Shown here in pieces: positions 45,701 through 53,864 of a stretch of 64,000 nucleotides of DNA. The translations under genes were made by a program, and so were the position numbers. The notes beneath the pieces are model-generated. The model searched no databases and had not been told where the DNA came from. It was given only the letters and a program-made list of their open reading frames with translations. How positions within the stretch are numbered: position 1 is the stretch's first letter; each line of letters begins with the position of its first letter. The DNA comes from Bacteroidia bacterium (GTDB lineage: Bacteria; Bacteroidota; Bacteroidia; B-17B0; Aurantibacillaceae): positions 1 to 64,000 of the forward strand of contig JANYIQ010000227.1 of assembly GCA_025362575.1 (NCBI GenBank). Direction: 5' to 3'.

Positions 45701-46396
45701 ATGAAACGAATAGCACTTCTATTTTTATGTCTAAAAGTTTTATCTGCCAGCTCGCAGAAAACCTATGCAATGGCAAAAAAATATTTTCTTCAAAATAACT
45801 TTTCGCAAAGCACCATTTATCTGGATTCATGTGCCAAACAAAAAGATTATGCAGATAGCGCCTTATATTTAAAAGCACATATTGCCATAAAAAACAATCA
45901 GTTTGATAAAGCTACAGACCTTTGCGATAAACTTCATCACCAGAATAAAAGTTATTACGAGGTTTGGTTTCTGCGCGGTCTTATTGCTTCACTTAAAACA
46001 AAATACGCGCAAGCTGCCGAAGATTATACCAAAGTACTCAATCACGACCCCAAACATTTAAAAGCATTATACAACCGCTCCTGGGCTAAAGGTCAGCTCG
46101 AAGACTACGAGAGTGCCATTAGCGATCTCAATACCTGCATTAATTTAGATGCCAATTTTGCTGCTGCGTATTATTCGCGCGCCTTCTGCAATGAAAAAGC
46201 CGGTAATTTTGACGCCGCCATTCGCGATTATTCTAAAACAATAACATTGAACGAGAATTACGAAGACGCTTATTTACCCTTAGCTTACGCCCTTAATCAA
46301 AAAGGAGAAAAAGTTCAGGCCTGCGAAATGCTTCAAAAAGCAATCGAAAAAGGCGTACACGTTGCGAACGACTTTAAAGAAAATTTTTGTAAGTAG
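45701..46396 (+). CDS. Exported TPR-repeat protein
   Basis: The protein is about 231 residues from ATG 45701, which gives a signal peptide (MKRIALLFLCLKVLSASSQ). An upstream ATT-rich extension from 45659 would precede the promoter box and is rejected. At least four tetratricopeptide units are visible, for example DYTKVLNHDPKHLKALYNR and DLNTCINLDANFAAAYYSR, ending with QKGEKVQACEMLQKAIEKG. TPR proteins hold partners together. With a T9SS-sorted protein and a PorP/SprF protein in the same direction, a role in surface-protein assembly or a complex in the periplasm is likely. Confidence 0.85.
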   Translation: MKRIALLFLCLKVLSASSQKTYAMAKKYFLQNNFSQSTIYLDSCAKQKDYADSALYLKAHIAIKNNQFDKATDLCDKLHHQNKSYYEVWFLRGLIASLKTKYAQAAEDYTKVLNHDPKHLKALYNRSWAKGQLEDYESAISDLNTCINLDANFAAAYYSRAFCNEKAGNFDAAIRDYSKTITLNENYEDAYLPLAYALNQKGEKVQACEMLQKAIEKGVHVANDFKENFCK

Positions 46397-46397
46397 T

Positions 46398-46949
46398 TTG
46401 AGGAAAAAAATTGTCATATTTTCTTTCCTACTAATTACTACTTTTTCATTTAGTCAAGCCCCCTTATTTGTTTCTCTCCAGAAAACCGATGCTTTTTGTT
46501 TTTCGGGCGGCGCTTCCATTAGCATTTTTAGCGGAACACCACCTTACAAAATAGCTTGGGGTAGTGGCGATACAACTTATTCAATAAATGGTCTTGTTCC
46601 CGGCTCCTATTCTGTTTATGTTAAAGACGCTGCACTTAAAGATACTTCCATCGCCTTTACCATTGATAATTTGACCTGCGAAGTAGCTATTTCAAACCAT
46701 TTTACACCCAACGACGATGGCTTTAATGATACCTGGGGAATTACAAATACCGTAACCTTTCCCAATTTTGAATTAACTGTTTTTAATCGCTGGGGGCAAA
46801 CTGTACATCAGCAAACGCAAACCTATAAGCCCTGGGATGGAAAATCGCTGGGAGTTAATTTGCCCGATGCCACTTATTATTACATTTTTTATTTCGACCG
46901 AAGTATGAAAGATAAATTACTGAAAGGTGATGTATCTATTTTAAGATGA
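46398..46949 (+). CDS. Short T9SS type B sorting-domain (gliding-motility C-terminal) protein
   Basis: The protein is about 183 residues from TTG 46398, which yields a compact signal peptide (RKKIVIFSFLLITTFSFSQ). An earlier TTG at 46362 lies inside the TPR gene. The mature protein has one SprB-type repeat (CFSGGASISIFSGTPPYKI, then YSVYVKDA). A type B T9SS domain follows directly: ISNHFTPNDDGFNDTWGI, VFNRWGQTVHQ, PDATYYYIFYF and a C-terminal GDVSILR. Little besides export and anchoring elements is present, so it may be a minimal surface adhesin unit or a partner for the following PorP/SprF protein, whose ATG overlaps its stop. Confidence 0.86.
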   Translation: MRKKIVIFSFLLITTFSFSQAPLFVSLQKTDAFCFSGGASISIFSGTPPYKIAWGSGDTTYSINGLVPGSYSVYVKDAALKDTSIAFTIDNLTCEVAISNHFTPNDDGFNDTWGITNTVTFPNFELTVFNRWGQTVHQQTQTYKPWDGKSLGVNLPDATYYYIFYFDRSMKDKLLKGDVSILR

Positions 46950-47908
46950 GAAAATTCATTTTACATATTCCATTAATTTTATTCTGCGATTTTTTATCTG
47001 CACAGCAAACCACGCAATACACTCAATTTACATTTAACCGATACGGGTATAATCCCGCCGCTGCAGGAACCAGTTTTAAAAGTCCTTTCGAAATTATTAT
47101 TGGCACCAAACGACAGTGGCTGGATATTGATAATGCTCCAAAAACAAATTTTTTTGGTGCCAACTATACTTTTATTCCAAAACGAAGTTACCGTAAATGG
47201 CATAACATTGGGGCTTATATAGATCAAGACCAATCCGGTGTTTTTGCCAACAATAGTTTTTTGGTTTCTTATACTTTTCATTTGTTGATTTCGAAAAGAT
47301 TAGTCGCCGCATTTGGTGTTTTTGCCGGCGCAAGACGATTTTTTATCTCAACCAATTCCTTAAATCCTTCCGATCCTGCGGTAGCAAAAAGTGCAAGTAA
47401 CCTCGTTGCTTATCCCGACGTTATTCCGGGCTTCAGACTTTACAATAAAAAATTCTTTTTCGATATAAGTTTACGTCAACTAACAACTCCAAAACAATCT
47501 AATTCAGAAAAACAAATCGGACTCAATTCAAAAATAATTCCACATATATATACAAGTGTGGGAATGCGATTCTTTTTTGATAATAATTTTTCGTTGGTAC
47601 CATCTTTAAACATGCACAGCACTTTCAATTACATTCCGGCTTTTCAGGGTAATTTAATGTTGAATTATGGCACCCGTTTTGGGATAGGAGCTTCGGTAAC
47701 CGGGAAAAATTTTGTTGGCGGTATTTTTCAAATACGATTTCTTAAAAACGCGGTAGTTGGTATTGCTTACGAATATTCGATAAACCGCATGCGTGTTGCC
47801 GCCCCAAACACCATCGAATTCATGATGGGAATTGTGCCCATTTTCGACACCCGCGACCGCTTCGGAAAGAGCAGTAATGTGGCTAAATGCCCTATTTTAG
47901 AGTTTTAA
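46946..47908 (+). CDS. PorP/SprF family type IX secretion membrane protein
   Basis: The protein is 320 residues. A signal peptide ends in FLSAQQ. The first strand has the family pattern QYTQFTFNRYGYNPAAAGT, followed by alternating hydrophobic strands of an outer-membrane barrel and IGAYIDQDQSGVF. Relatives bind type B sorted substrates at the cell surface through PorE-type partners. The gene overlaps the upstream type B protein by 4 nt (ATGA), a pairing seen for SprB/SprF. It probably handles that specific protein rather than general secretion. Transcription likely ends before the paa promoter 7 nt downstream. Confidence 0.88.
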   Translation: MRKFILHIPLILFCDFLSAQQTTQYTQFTFNRYGYNPAAAGTSFKSPFEIIIGTKRQWLDIDNAPKTNFFGANYTFIPKRSYRKWHNIGAYIDQDQSGVFANNSFLVSYTFHLLISKRLVAAFGVFAGARRFFISTNSLNPSDPAVAKSASNLVAYPDVIPGFRLYNKKFFFDISLRQLTTPKQSNSEKQIGLNSKIIPHIYTSVGMRFFFDNNFSLVPSLNMHSTFNYIPAFQGNLMLNYGTRFGIGASVTGKNFVGGIFQIRFLKNAVVGIAYEYSINRMRVAAPNTIEFMMGIVPIFDTRDRFGKSSNVAKCPILEF

Positions 47909-47914
47909 AATCCA

Positions 47915-47946
47915 TTTGCTTTAACCCCTATTTTCTCTTAAATTTG
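47915..47946 (+). promoter_or_regulatory. Promoter of the paa operon
   Basis: TTTG at 47915-47918 and TAAATTTG at 47939-47946 have a 20-nt spacer. Both elements match the Bacteroidota consensus. A start about 6 nt after the -7 box gives a leader of about 20 nt before the paaA ATG at 47973. Confidence 0.68.
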
Positions 47947-47972
47947 TAATGCTATCCTAATTAGTATTGGAA

Positions 47973-48911
47973 ATGGAAAACAAACAATTTGAAGACGTTT
48001 TTGAAGCCAAATTGGCAAAGAACGAAATGATAGAACCTAAAGACTGGATGCCGGATAATTACCGCAAGCATTTGATCCGACAAATATCTCAGCATGCCCA
48101 CTCCGAAATTGTAGGTATGCTGCCTGAAGGCAACTGGATCACCCGCGCCCCGAGTTTACGCGCCAAAGTTGTGCTTTTAGCAAAGGTGCAGGACGAAGGC
48201 GGACACGGTTTATATTTATATACCGCCGCCGAAACATTGGGTACAGGCCGCGATGAATTATTAGAAGCATTACACACCGGCAAAGCAAAATATTCTTCCA
48301 TCTTTAATTATCCAACTTTAACCTGGGCCGATATTGGCGCGGTCGGTTGGTTAGTAGATGGTGCAGCTATCATGAATCAGGTAATGTTACAACGTACTTC
48401 TTACGGACCATACGCAAGAGCTATGGTAAGAATTTGCAAAGAAGAAAGTTTTCATCAGCGCCAGGGTTACGAGATCATGTGTCATTTATCATTTGGCACT
48501 GCCGAACAAAAAGCAATGGCGCAAGATGCTTTGAACCGTTGGTGGTTTCCAACTATGATGATGTTTGGTCCGCCTGATTCTGAATCACCAAACAGCGAAA
48601 ATGCACTTAAGTGGCGCATCAAACGCGAATCGAACGATCAGCTTCGTCAGCGTTTTGTAAATCAAACTGTTCAGCAAGTTGAATATTTGGGACTAACGGT
48701 TCCGGATCCAAAACTAAAATGGAACGAAGAAAAAAAGGGTTACGATTTCAGCGAACCAAATTGGGTAGAATTTAAAAATGTAATTAGCGGAAACGGTCCT
48801 TGTAACAAAGAACGTTTGGCAGCAAGAAACCAGGCACACAAAAATGGTGAGTGGGTAAGAGCGGCTGCACAAGCATTTGCAAAAAAGCGCGCACAAAAAA
48901 TTGCAGCATAA
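47973..48911 (+). CDS. paaA: Phenylacetyl-CoA epoxidase catalytic subunit PaaA
   Basis: The protein is about 312 residues; ATG 47973 is preferred over a TTG two codons earlier. It is the diiron subunit of the ring 1,2-epoxidase. Carboxylate and histidine ligands lie in helix motifs such as [12 protein letters not shown] and [14 protein letters not shown], and the opening [12 protein letters not shown] is typical. With PaaC, PaaB and a reductase it adds oxygen to phenylacetyl-CoA in the cytosol. It is the first gene of an operon with a strong promoter; paaB follows after 71 nt. Confidence 0.96.
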
Positions 48912-48982
48912 AAAAAGTGATGAGTGATAAGTTTAAAAATAAGTTGCAAACAAATAAACAGAAAACAATTAAACATTAAAAA

Positions 48983-49270
48983 ATGAGTGATAATCAAGGC
49001 CCGATCTGGGAAGTATTTGTTCAGAAAAAAGCAGGGCAGCCTTTTGTACATTGCGGAAGCTTACATGCTTTTGATAAAGAAATGGCATTGCAAAACGCAC
49101 GCGATCTGTATACGCGCCGCCAGGAAGGCTGTGCTTTATGGGTGGTGAAGTCATCTGAAATAGTAGCAAGCAGTCCCGAAGATATTGGACCATTCTTTGA
49201 ACCATCAAACGACAAAGTTTATCGTCACCCGACTTTTTATCAGATACCGGATGCAATAGGGCATATGTAA
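48983..49270 (+). CDS. paaB: Phenylacetyl-CoA epoxidase subunit PaaB
   Basis: This 95-residue protein is the small PaaB subunit: PIWEVFVQKKAGQPFVHCG, then HAFDKEMALQNARDLYTRR and the WVVKSSEI strand. PaaB bridges PaaA-PaaC heterodimers into the active complex and has no active site. Size and order match other epoxidase operons. A 75-nt gap separates it from paaC. Confidence 0.95.
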   Translation: MSDNQGPIWEVFVQKKAGQPFVHCGSLHAFDKEMALQNARDLYTRRQEGCALWVVKSSEIVASSPEDIGPFFEPSNDKVYRHPTFYQIPDAIGHM

Positions 49271-49345
49271 AAAAGAGTTCGGTGTTAAGAGTTCGTAGCA
49301 TTAGAAACGAATTTCCATCGGGCTCCCAAAACAAAACAACGAACT

Positions 49346-50098
49346 ATGAACAACGAACTTTTCAAATACACCTTACGTTTAGGAGATACAAATCTTATTC
49401 TTGGTCAGAGATTAAGTGAATGGACGGGACACGGCCCTTTTTTAGAAGAGGATCTAGCTTTAACCAACATCACGCTCGACATTATGGGTGCAGCTAAGGC
49501 ATTTTTGGAATATGCAGCTAAGATCGAAGGAAAAGGAAGAACCGAAGACGATCTTGCGTTTTTTAGAAATGACAGAGAATTTTATAACGCGCTTATCGTT
49601 GAGTTACCAAACGGTGATTATGCAAAGACAATTATGCGTCAGGCTTTGGTAGATACTTTTGATCTGTATTTTTATCAGGAGCTTGTAAAAAGCAAAGACG
49701 AAACTTTAGCCGGCATTGCACAAAAATCCATTAAGGAAGTTACTTATCATTTACGCCATAGCAGTTCTTGGGTTGAACGTTTTGGAGACGGCACAGAAGA
49801 TAGTCACGAAAAAATTCAATCTGCTTTAAATGAATTGTGGCGTTATACAAACGATATGTTTGAGATGACAGAAGTAGATGAAGTATTGATAAAAGCCGGC
49901 ATTGCCGTTGATCTGAATTTGATAAAAACAAAATGGGAAAAACACATTGATGAACTTTTGGCAAAATCAACTTTAAAGAAACCGGAGAATGCCTTCATGC
50001 AGAGCGGAAGCCGCAAAGCAATTCACACCGAACATTTAGCTTATATTTTATCAGAAATGCAAACTCTTCCAAGAATGCTTCCTGATGCCAAATGGTAA
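49346..50098 (+). CDS. paaC: Phenylacetyl-CoA epoxidase structural subunit PaaC
   Basis: The protein is 250 residues. It is a ferritin-like subunit related to PaaA that lacks a full set of iron ligands. RLGDTNLILGQRLSEWTGHGPF opens the protein. IKEVTYHLRHSSSWVERFGDG is the diagnostic helix, and the end is SEMQTLPRMLPDAKW. It pairs with PaaA to form the oxygenase core. The next gene begins 14 nt past its stop. Confidence 0.95.
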   Translation: MNNELFKYTLRLGDTNLILGQRLSEWTGHGPFLEEDLALTNITLDIMGAAKAFLEYAAKIEGKGRTEDDLAFFRNDREFYNALIVELPNGDYAKTIMRQALVDTFDLYFYQELVKSKDETLAGIAQKSIKEVTYHLRHSSSWVERFGDGTEDSHEKIQSALNELWRYTNDMFEMTEVDEVLIKAGIAVDLNLIKTKWEKHIDELLAKSTLKKPENAFMQSGSRKAIHTEHLAYILSEMQTLPRMLPDAKW

Positions 50099-50111
50099 AA
50101 AAATAAATAAT

Positions 50112-50498
50112 ATGAAAAAACTATTCTTTATCGCGTGTTTATTTTTAAGCATTGCTTGCGTAGCTCAAACCGTAAAATTAAAGCCAAAAGCAAAAGCTAA
50201 GTCAAAAGCTACAGCCATTACTGACCTTGCCGAAACAATGATCCCCAAAGGAAAATTAGTGCAGTCGACCTCCTTAAAAGATATCATAATTCTCCCTAAG
50301 GGATGTAACGTTTCAGGTTATTATTTCTCTTGTACTCAATTAGGAACTTTCCATGAGGCGCAAGTTAAAGGCGGAAAATTCAATGAGGAAATGCTAAACT
50401 TGTTCAAAAAAGGGCATGCTAACCAGGTATATGTTTTTGAACGCGTTAAAGCTTCCTGCAAAGTAAAAAAACGCTACGAAGTTATCATTCAGCCATGA
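50112..50498 (+). CDS. Small exported protein inside the paa operon (unknown)
   Basis: This 128-residue protein from ATG 50112 has a signal peptide (KKLFFIACLFLSIACVAQ), a Lys/Ala run (KPKAKAKSKATA) and a short mature domain with GYYFSCTQLGTFHEAQVKGG. I do not recognise a family. A 14-nt gap from paaC and an ATGA overlap with the next micro-gene tie it to the operon. An exported protein is unexpected between cytosolic epoxidase genes. A link to phenylacetate uptake or sensing is speculation. Confidence 0.65.
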   Translation: MKKLFFIACLFLSIACVAQTVKLKPKAKAKSKATAITDLAETMIPKGKLVQSTSLKDIIILPKGCNVSGYYFSCTQLGTFHEAQVKGGKFNEEMLNLFKKGHANQVYVFERVKASCKVKKRYEVIIQP

Positions 50499-50602
50499 GT
50501 TTAAAAGAGAGCTGGAAAAAAATGGCACCCTATTTTGTTGATTTCTGGCAATACCTGGTGATAATTGTCATAATGATAATTGCTGCAATTTTCATTTTAT
50601 AA
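50495..50602 (+). CDS. 35-residue single-helix membrane micro-protein in the paa operon
   Basis: An ATG at 50495 overlaps the stop of the upstream gene (ATGA) and opens a 35-codon frame ending at 50602, 22 nt before paaD. It has a short amphipathic start (SLKESWKKMAPYFVDFW) and one strongly hydrophobic helix (YLVIIVIMIIAAIFIL) up to the stop. The exact overlap and the absence of other use for this DNA argue that it is real. Function is unknown; it could anchor or modulate a membrane partner. Confidence 0.6.
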   Translation: MSLKESWKKMAPYFVDFWQYLVIIVIMIIAAIFIL

Positions 50603-50624
50603 AGCACCTTTGCACTAACCATCA

Positions 50625-51113
50625 ATGATCTTAACTAAAGAAAATATTCTTCAGCTTCTCAATAAAATTCCTGATCCTGAAATTCCCGTGATCAGCATTG
50701 TTGAATTAGGTGTGATCAGAGAAGTTAAGATCGATAATGAAAAGGTAGAACTTACAATTACGCCTACTTACAGCGGTTGCCCTGCCATGAAGCAAATGGA
50801 AGATGATATACGGAAAACGCTGAAAGAAAATAAGATCAATGATTTTAAAATTACCATGACCTACTCTCCTGCATGGAGCACCGACTGGATGAGCGCTGAA
50901 ACAAAGGAGAAATTAAGAAAATACGGCATTGCACCACCTGAACAAAATACACAAGATAAATCTTTCATAACCGGCAAAATAAAAACGGTTTCTTGTCCAA
51001 GATGCCGTTCAACAAACACAAAACTAATTTCTCAATTTGGCAGCACAGCCTGCAAAGCCTTATACCAGTGCCAGGATTGCATGGAGCCTTTTGATTACTT
51101 TAAGTGTATTTAG
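50625..51113 (+). CDS. paaD: PaaD, MIP18-type iron-sulfur maturation protein of the epoxidase
   Basis: The protein is 162 residues. The N-terminal MIP18/DUF59 domain is seen in LLNKIPDPEIPVISIVELG and YSGCPAMKQME, where the cysteine binds metal or cluster. The C-terminal zinc-ribbon-like part has VSCPRCRST and YQCQDCMEPF. PaaD is thought to build the iron-sulfur cluster or metal site of the epoxidase system. In most operons PaaE, the reductase, follows; here a convergent T9SS gene comes next and no reductase is in view. Two hairpins start directly after the stop. Confidence 0.93.
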   Translation: MILTKENILQLLNKIPDPEIPVISIVELGVIREVKIDNEKVELTITPTYSGCPAMKQMEDDIRKTLKENKINDFKITMTYSPAWSTDWMSAETKEKLRKYGIAPPEQNTQDKSFITGKIKTVSCPRCRSTNTKLISQFGSTACKALYQCQDCMEPFDYFKCI

Positions 51114-51168
51114 CCCGTAGGATAAACATCCAACGGGTTGAACCGGTAGGATTGAAAATCCAATTGGT
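51114..51168. terminator. Tandem hairpins between convergent paaD and the FG-GAP gene
   Basis: CCCGT...ACGGG (51114-51137, with GGAT/ATCC inside) and ACCGGT...ATTGGT (51142-51168, with GGATT/AATCC inside) are two related stem-loops back to back. The first begins at the base after the paaD stop. They could terminate both converging transcripts, though T-runs are short. Confidence 0.55.
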
Positions 51169-51176
51169 CTTAAGAT

Positions 51177-53864
51177 CTATTTTATCACCACTACTTTTGA
51201 GTTTATAGTCTGACCTTTCAAGAAATAGATCCCAATAGGAAGATCACTTATCCGAACTTCATAGTTATTGAACTCCTTCAAAGAAACCGTTTTTACAACT
51301 TGCCCTAGTTCATTGGAGATAATAACGTCTTCATTGGTATAACCTTTGATTGCAAATTCTCCGTTGTTCGGATTTGGATAAACCATAACGGTTGCTGAGT
51401 TTTCTTGTTGACCATTAATTCCGGTACAAACTACCACCGTAATTGTTTTGCTTGCTGTTGATGAGCAAGTGCCTGATGGATTAACAACGGTAACCGAATA
51501 AACCCCTGCCGCACTAACAACCAAACTATCTACTGTACTTCCGCCCGGATTCCACATATAACTGAAGGCATTTGCAGAAGCGTGCAATGTAATGGTGTTT
51601 CCTAAACAAATAGTACCAGAACCTACAGATGTTATAACCGCTGAATTATTGTAAGAGATCGTCACATTACTTCTTCCTAAAGAAAAATTGGAATTGATAT
51701 AGCTTCTGATGATCACATCTTTTGTTCCATCATTATTCATGTCTTTTACTCCTAACCAAGCTGAACCTGAATAAACTCTTCCTATCGGGTAATTCAACGG
51801 ACTTGCAAAAGTTCCTGTGCCGCTTCCCAATAAAACCGAATAATCACTGTTGGTATAGTTACCGGTTACTATATCCTGAAAACCATCTCCATTCATGTCT
51901 TCAACAACAATATCCTTTCCTTGTCCGCTGGTTGAATAAAACGTAGCAGGCTGAAACGTACCGCTTGCTGTTCCCAATAAAACAGATATTTTATTTGGTC
52001 CTGAATTATAATCGGCAACAATAAGATCTGTTCTTCCGTCTCCGTTCACATCTTTATTATTCATGTTGATCGGTGCATTTCCTGCTGTGATATAAGAAAC
52101 GGGTGCGCTGAATGCGTTCGCTCCGGTTCCCATAACAACATACACATTGCTGATATTGAAATGCCCGTATGCAATGTCTGCATTACCATCGTTATTATAA
52201 TCACCAATCGTAGTTTCTGCAGGATTTACTAAAGTTGCAAGTGTGGTTGCCAAAGCAAACGTTCCTGTTCCATTTCCTGAATAAATGGTGATCGTATTTG
52301 CATTATAGTTTGAAAGGGCAAGATCCTTATTCCCGTCGTTATTAAAATCTCCCACTTTTGCATCATAAGGCGGTACCGATAAAGTTACGGTGCCCGAGGC
52401 TGTAAAAACTCCTGCTCCGTTTCCTGCCATAAATGCAATAGAATGCGGATAGGCATTAACAGCTACAATATCTTTTTTTCCATCATTATTAAAATCAGCG
52501 TATAAAATATCTACTATCTGTCCGGTTGCGCCACTTGTATATGTTGATGCTGCAGCAAAATTTCCGGAACCAGTGCCCATAGCAACATCGATCGCATTAA
52601 TGGCAGAGCTGATCAGATCCTGTTTTCCGTCGGCATTAAGGTCTTCAACAACTAAACCGCCACCGCTGCTAACCGAAGGAAATTTAATATCAGGCATTCC
52701 GAATAAATTTCCACCTTTATTCAATACAGCGAAAACACGGTTTTGCATTGCTGCATTACAAGCAAAAACATCAGGTTTTCCGTCAAGGTTAAGGTCGGCA
52801 GTTCCTATGCTTCCGCTTAAGTTTGAATTCATGTCGATCACTACAAAAGGTTTATAAGAAAAAGTTCCGTTACCATTGCCTTTCATGTAATTGATACTTC
52901 CATCACACATTACAACAAGATCGGTTTTACCATCAGCGTCCATGTCGGCTGCGGTAACACCAAATGGTGTATCCACAAAATTACTGATGGTAGTTGTTGT
53001 AAATCCGCCGGCTCCATTTCCTAAACTTATTGAAATGGAATTGCTGTATGAGTGTGCGGTGGCAATGTCTTTTTTTCCATCATTATTAAAATCTGCAGTG
53101 GTCAGGTCCCAGCCTGCTGTTTGAACCGGAACATTGCTGTAAGTGCTGAAGCTTCCTGTTCCGTTTCCATAATGTGCGTATAATGCATTGGTTCCACTGC
53201 TCATTAAAAGATCCTGGTTCCCGTCATTATTAAGATCATCGATCACAAGGTTCCACGGGTTACCTCCGGTGGTATAAGTTGAAGGGGCACCAAAAGCGCC
53301 GGCACCATTTCCCAGCATAACGGTAACAACAGATGCACCACCGTTCTGATAGGGTACAACAATATCCTGTTTAGTATCATTGTTCACATCGGCGATGCGC
53401 AGGTCAGCCATTTGCGCAGATCCTCCCGGCCATCCACAACTGATGGTTCCTGTAGATACAAAACTTCCTGTTCCCGTTCCTAATAAAATGGAGGCGTCTT
53501 TCGAACCGTAGTCTAAAGTTACAACATCCAGTTTTCCATCTCCATTAATATCTTTTAAGCGATGAATTAGCGGATTAGTTCCTGCGCCAACCAATATGCT
53601 AATTCCGGTATTGAAGGTTCCGTTACCGGTACCGATGAGTGTTATAATTTTATTAGTACAGGTTGTAGTTACCAGATCGGGTTTACCGTCACCGTTAATA
53701 TCGCCACAAGTTGTAAAGCCGGGACAATCACCAGGAAACGTGTATGAATAATCATTTAAAGAAGTAAAGCAAGCACCAGTTTGTGCTTTTAAAATAGTGA
53801 TGCTTGAAAAAACAGCGCATCCAAATATTAATGCTTTAGCGAAATTATTTTTTGTGTTGATCAT
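51177..53864 (-). CDS. FG-GAP/VCBS-repeat surface protein with T9SS type A domain
   Basis: The 895-residue protein has a signal peptide ending ILKAQTG. About twelve repeats follow, each with a calcium-binding-like DxNxDGxxD element, such as DINGDGKPDL and DFNNDGNKDLAL. This is the blade pattern of integrin-like FG-GAP propellers. Near residue 750 there is a PKD/Ig-like stretch (CLGNTITLHASANAF). The C-terminus is a type A sorting domain (VYPNPNNGEFAIKG, ELGQVVKTV, NSKVVVIK). It should be on the outside as an adhesin or polymer-binding protein. Its ligand is unknown. Confidence 0.9.
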   Translation of the reverse strand: MINTKNNFAKALIFGCAVFSSITILKAQTGACFTSLNDYSYTFPGDCPGFTTCGDINGDGKPDLVTTTCTNKIITLIGTGNGTFNTGISILVGAGTNPLIHRLKDINGDGKLDVVTLDYGSKDASILLGTGTGSFVSTGTISCGWPGGSAQMADLRIADVNNDTKQDIVVPYQNGGASVVTVMLGNGAGAFGAPSTYTTGGNPWNLVIDDLNNDGNQDLLMSSGTNALYAHYGNGTGSFSTYSNVPVQTAGWDLTTADFNNDGKKDIATAHSYSNSISISLGNGAGGFTTTTISNFVDTPFGVTAADMDADGKTDLVVMCDGSINYMKGNGNGTFSYKPFVVIDMNSNLSGSIGTADLNLDGKPDVFACNAAMQNRVFAVLNKGGNLFGMPDIKFPSVSSGGGLVVEDLNADGKQDLISSAINAIDVAMGTGSGNFAAASTYTSGATGQIVDILYADFNNDGKKDIVAVNAYPHSIAFMAGNGAGVFTASGTVTLSVPPYDAKVGDFNNDGNKDLALSNYNANTITIYSGNGTGTFALATTLATLVNPAETTIGDYNNDGNADIAYGHFNISNVYVVMGTGANAFSAPVSYITAGNAPINMNNKDVNGDGRTDLIVADYNSGPNKISVLLGTASGTFQPATFYSTSGQGKDIVVEDMNGDGFQDIVTGNYTNSDYSVLLGSGTGTFASPLNYPIGRVYSGSAWLGVKDMNNDGTKDVIIRSYINSNFSLGRSNVTISYNNSAVITSVGSGTICLGNTITLHASANAFSYMWNPGGSTVDSLVVSAAGVYSVTVVNPSGTCSSTASKTITVVVCTGINGQQENSATVMVYPNPNNGEFAIKGYTNEDVIISNELGQVVKTVSLKEFNNYEVRISDLPIGIYFLKGQTINSKVVVIK

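Follow-up and report, generated by a model that had tools for sequence, protein, structure and literature searches.

A conserved membrane microprotein and an exported GldM/PorM D4-like protein encoded between paaC and paaD in a Bacteroidia phenylacetate operon

The ring-epoxidation system PaaABC is, to our knowledge, known only as a cytosolic one. In a 64,000-nucleotide stretch of Bacteroidia DNA (the window, a term used here for the whole stretch analyzed), two small genes, one for an exported protein and one for a single membrane helix, lie between paaC and paaD, and what such genes do within a catabolic operon is the question considered here. With confidence slightly better than even, the explanation favored is that the paa operon of the family to which the window belongs (the window family) has captured two envelope genes, the exported protein being of D4 type and the microprotein a general accessory. 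The phenylacetate chemistry itself does not appear to depend on either gene.

The operon and its surroundings

Four paa genes follow one another on the forward strand, each scoring above the cutoff of its own NCBIfam equivalog: paaA, encoding the catalytic subunit of the epoxidase (47967-48911; TIGR02156, E 2e-155), paaB (48983-49270; TIGR02157, E 7e-40), paaC (49346-50098; TIGR02158, E 2e-87), and paaD (50625-51113; TIGR02159, E 1e-58). The start of paaA is more likely the ATG at 47973 or one nearby. Just 5' of it a Bacteroidota-type promoter, TTG-N20-TAAATTTG, can be read at 47916-47946 (+) as a pattern match only. No terminator-like site was found within 47800-51250, and paaABC, paaD, and the two inserted genes are probably transcribed together. 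A structured RNA in the region was rejected because an Rfam search gave no match.

On the same strand, the first inserted reading frame (50112-50498) begins 13 nucleotides past the paaC stop and encodes a protein of 128 residues with a signal peptide and a single GldM/PorM D4-like domain, in which C65 and C116 are invariant across the family. The second (50495-50602, +) encodes the 35-residue membrane microprotein MSLKESWKKMAPYFVDFWQYLVIIVIMIIAAIFIL, its start overlapping the preceding stop as ATGA (50495-50498, +). This arrangement of an exported protein and a single membrane helix, linked by the overlap, had been described in the initial annotation, and the reading frames are confirmed.

Upstream of paaA, the gene of a short protein that bears a type IX secretion signal (CHU_C; 46362-46949) is followed, directly 5' of paaA, by that of an outer membrane protein of the PorP/SprF family (46946-47908), the two genes again overlapping as ATGA. 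The latter protein has a cysteine in its C-terminal tail (...AKCPILEF), and in SprF a C-tail cysteine motif bonds to GldK (PMC12635249). Directly past paaD, a convergent gene (51177-53864, reverse strand) encodes a large protein of FG-GAP repeats that carries a sorting tail for type IX secretion. The genome also holds a second paaC-like gene (G000:C56:16140-16883), 53% identical to that of the window.

The microprotein family and its link to paa genes

A frame of this size is easily missed by gene finders, and that it is nonetheless a real gene, as first proposed, follows from its pattern of substitution. The homologous frame is open in relatives, at 71-89% identity, which settles the matter of its conservation. 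Over 88 distinct sequences pS is 0.81, with synonymous positions saturated, and pN is 0.12 (pN/pS 0.15); pN is lower than pS in 3826 of 3828 pairs, which are not independent of one another. Because the amino-acid sequence is preserved although silent positions have reached saturation, a chance reading frame is ruled out as the explanation, and by this signature of purifying selection the micro-ORF is a real gene.

Members of the family share the motif YFxDxWQY, followed by a terminal helix. Phe-14, Asp-16, Trp-18, and Tyr-20 are invariant among 42 diverse members, Tyr-13, Gln-19, Ala-30, and Leu-35 nearly so; the end of the helix is the end of the protein in nearly all members, and a charged residue after WQY occurs in one of 120. 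AlphaFold2 models the microprotein as a single helix spanning residues 3-34, for which the positive-inside rule predicts an N-in topology. Searches of Pfam, NCBIfam, PHROG, and the PDB gave no convincing match, so that assignment to a known family or solved structure was rejected, and the matches of some members to PF03579 (viral hydrophobic protein; E 6e-4) were read as an effect of composition. A plasmid or phage origin was likewise rejected, as collections of both contain no match. Within the collection of papers searched, no literature on small proteins of the paa operon or on the microprotein family was found. The family is a previously undescribed, strongly conserved one of single-pass proteins.

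How closely these proteins are tied to phenylacetate degradation bears on the main rival explanation, in which the microprotein of the window family and of one genome outside it (G220) would be a membrane tether or assembly factor specific to Paa, recruiting PaaABC, the Fe-S assembly-like PaaD, or both to the inner membrane. The frame is present in 71 of the 87 window-family genomes, the genomes compared being mostly fragmented assemblies. It lies 3' of paaC in 57 carriers and directly 5' of paaD in 7 more, several of which sit on contigs ending there, so that 64 of the 71 have it after paaC and/or before paaD, as a tether would favor. The seven others comprise six from genus g9, where the setting is another one, and a seventh in which the gene lies at a contig edge. 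Also consistent with a tether is the retention of the microprotein beside paaD in G011 and G017, where the paaABC genes found are on another contig.

Beyond the window family, the order paaABC-microprotein-paaD is seen in G220, one genome of family f28 and a single case. In the paaC tree this genome is placed outside the supported clade of the window family, and its paaD is closest in sequence to those of other families; horizontal transfer of the window-family operon into this genome is thus supported neither by the tree nor by paaD similarity, and the slot was either filled in two unrelated lineages or represents an old state that has often been lost. The paa link, strong inside the window family, recurs once in an unrelated one. 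Co-occurrence is in excess as well: paaC is present in 57 of 62 genomes of the class with the microprotein versus 231 of 333 without it (Fisher 1.4e-4), and outside the window family in 45 of 50 versus 228 of 330 (0.002), neither comparison being corrected for kinship. Finally, the known phenylacetyl-CoA epoxidase requires PaaD in vivo though not in vitro (PMC4498308), so that a gene product encoded beside paaD could conceivably assist assembly in vivo.

The same comparisons, however, provide the evidence against a tether. Most paa operons are without the microprotein, and even within the window family, genus g3 and G064 have paaC and paaD adjacent and no detectable microprotein. A search for homologues of a 35-residue protein is of limited sensitivity; at that sensitivity, a survey of the class detected the microprotein in 62 of 395 genomes, and the protein family extends over at least 13 families of Bacteroidia. 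A species-level genome collection yielded 153 stretches with the gene; cultured carriers among them are Lishizhenia tianjinensis and Brumimicrobium glaciale, where it is not linked to paa. It was found in none of 247 other genomes of the phylum, a draw of near-complete genomes from families that also lacked it in the class search, which gives this result little weight. In Crocinitomicaceae-type loci the gene is flanked by a divergent 2-oxoacid dehydrogenase gene on one side and the gene of a large exported protein on the other, and in another family it comes after an inositol monophosphatase-like gene (names read from the sequences). The further settings outside the window family have nothing recognizable in common, and no functional neighbor shared by the microprotein loci outside paa was found. 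In carriers checked from nine other families (f6, f7, f9, f20, f21, f31, f34, f38, and f61) paaC and paaD are directly adjacent in nearly all, and G184 and G200, listed as 99-100% complete, have the microprotein with no paaC detected. The expectation that relatives would keep the insertion thus holds for the window family but fails in g3, G064, and the other families.

Because the microprotein lies elsewhere in these families, paaC and paaD are mostly adjacent there, and two genomes carry it without paaC, it is read as an accessory of the operon rather than as part of the epoxidase. A Paa-specific role is therefore considered unlikely; if true, it would mean that a membrane-bound version of the ring-epoxidation system was gained separately in two Bacteroidia lineages.

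The paa slot and the micro-gene itself vary in other ways. At three loci (L019, L142, and L144) the microprotein and paaD are separated by the gene of a TPR protein that resembles a sensor or a phosphatase, so that this stretch of the operon takes up different genes in different relatives. The microprotein is usually present in a single copy per genome. Some window-family genomes have a second copy in another setting (L215, L222, L223, and L224), with gcvH-like, spermidine-synthase-like, and SulP-like genes nearby and a recurrent small zinc-ribbon membrane protein. In G005 and G007 a truncated copy, its helix replaced by another frame, lies just 5' of the intact gene (L013 2591-2722, and L015).

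The exported protein

The exported gene is a different case. Between paaC and the microprotein, the exported gene is found in 15 window-family genomes only, in one to four tandem copies, so that of the two genes initially expected to be kept together, the microprotein stays in place in most carriers and the exported gene in only 15 of 71. Its homologues, about 17-30% identical to the window copy, retain the two invariant cysteines, and the reading frame is a real gene. At L046 and L092 (G080) three to four tandem, strongly diverged D4-like copies precede the microprotein, a fast-evolving array. In L004 this slot is occupied by a hydrolase-like gene, and in L011 it encodes an unrelated 209-residue protein. 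The exported protein is an accessory cargo of the slot.

Several lines of comparison connect this cargo with the type IX secretion motor. PF12080 (GldM_4th) matches 9 of the 15 family members at E values up to 1 (best, 2e-6), the window copy itself falling below the gathering cutoff (16.7 versus 24.6 bits). In many window-family genomes the profile of the exported family matches the C-terminal region of proteins of about 555 residues; in the window's genome this match is GldM, encoded within gldLMN, and hhalign aligns the two with an E value of 2.9e-6. The AlphaFold2 model, with a core above 90 pLDDT, has PDB matches of probability 1.00 that are all PorM/GldM (E 3e-3 to 3e-2, TMq about 0.5), so that a D4 fold is predicted. 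The protein is not a full GldM/PorM, having 128 residues and one domain, and the true GldM of the genome is encoded elsewhere. Because the PorM D4 domain alone suffices for PorN binding (PMC5790014), the exported protein may touch the GldK/GldN ring, and by this analogy its site of action may lie close to the type IX secretion ring.

Such a role could also be exercised jointly, the two products forming a functional envelope pair, for example as a modulator of type IX secretion or gliding. The D4-like fold is in keeping with this, as are the position of the exported gene directly 5' of the microprotein in the 15 genomes with both and, in most of them, the overlapping or abutting of stop and start. 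A functional pair is nevertheless improbable: in 56 of the 71 carriers no exported gene accompanies the microprotein at this position, and the two genes differ completely in evolutionary rate. A conserved two-gene unit is rejected because the exported gene is usually absent. These comparisons do not demonstrate the coupling of phenylacetate chemistry to the envelope first proposed for the pair; the microprotein of other families also lies mostly outside paa loci, and it occurs in two near-complete genomes with no paaC detected. As for the last alternative, a hydrophobic peptide of the type I toxin kind or a component of some selfish element, the size and hydrophobicity of the microprotein and its truncated tandem duplicates would fit, but a usually single copy, fixed operon position, strong purifying selection, and the empty plasmid, phage, and Rfam searches make it highly improbable.

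A proposed role and known counterparts

The capture of two envelope genes by the paaABC-D operon, followed by their transcription along with it, remains the favored reading. The microprotein would place a basic N-terminal turn in the cytoplasm and YFxDxWQY at the membrane interface, with the helix ending at the C terminus in or at the periplasmic face. It would serve as a regulator or small accessory subunit, its invariant Phe, Asp, Trp, and Tyr binding a larger inner-membrane partner, probably not the epoxidase across most of the range of the family. The exported product, a single GldM/PorM D4-type domain that is probably disulfide-bonded, most likely acts in the periplasm. On this view the window family has put under paa control what looks like a membrane accessory protein of general use. 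Against this reading, the 64 of 71 linkage, the paaD-side retention in G011 and G017, and the recurrence of the slot in the unrelated G220 point to something beyond passive capture.

Two additions to the protein repertoire result: a family of membrane microproteins, highly conserved and recognizable by a clear signature, and a type IX secretion motor domain that occurs on its own. The microprotein is conserved more strongly than the enzymes encoded beside it and yet is overlooked by gene finders and family libraries, and its fixed slot in a catabolic operon offers a ready setting in which to seek its partner.

Three known systems frame these conclusions. With the paaABCDE phenylacetyl-CoA epoxidase operon the locus shares paaA, paaB, paaC, and paaD in identical strand and order, but it has two additional genes between C and D, and paaE is not a direct neighbor. 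The exported protein resembles the C-terminal D4 domain of GldM/PorM (PF12080) in fold, in weak but repeated sequence similarity, and in periplasmic location; it differs in standing alone, without membrane helices and D1-D3, in its two invariant cysteines, in evolving very fast, and in sitting in a catabolic operon. CydX, KdpF, and AcrZ are small single-helix accessory proteins of membrane complexes, about 30-50 residues long, and the microprotein is of similar size, also with one membrane helix. Unlike them, it matches no family model, its gene does not lie beside one constant membrane complex, and the motif YFxDxWQY is its own.
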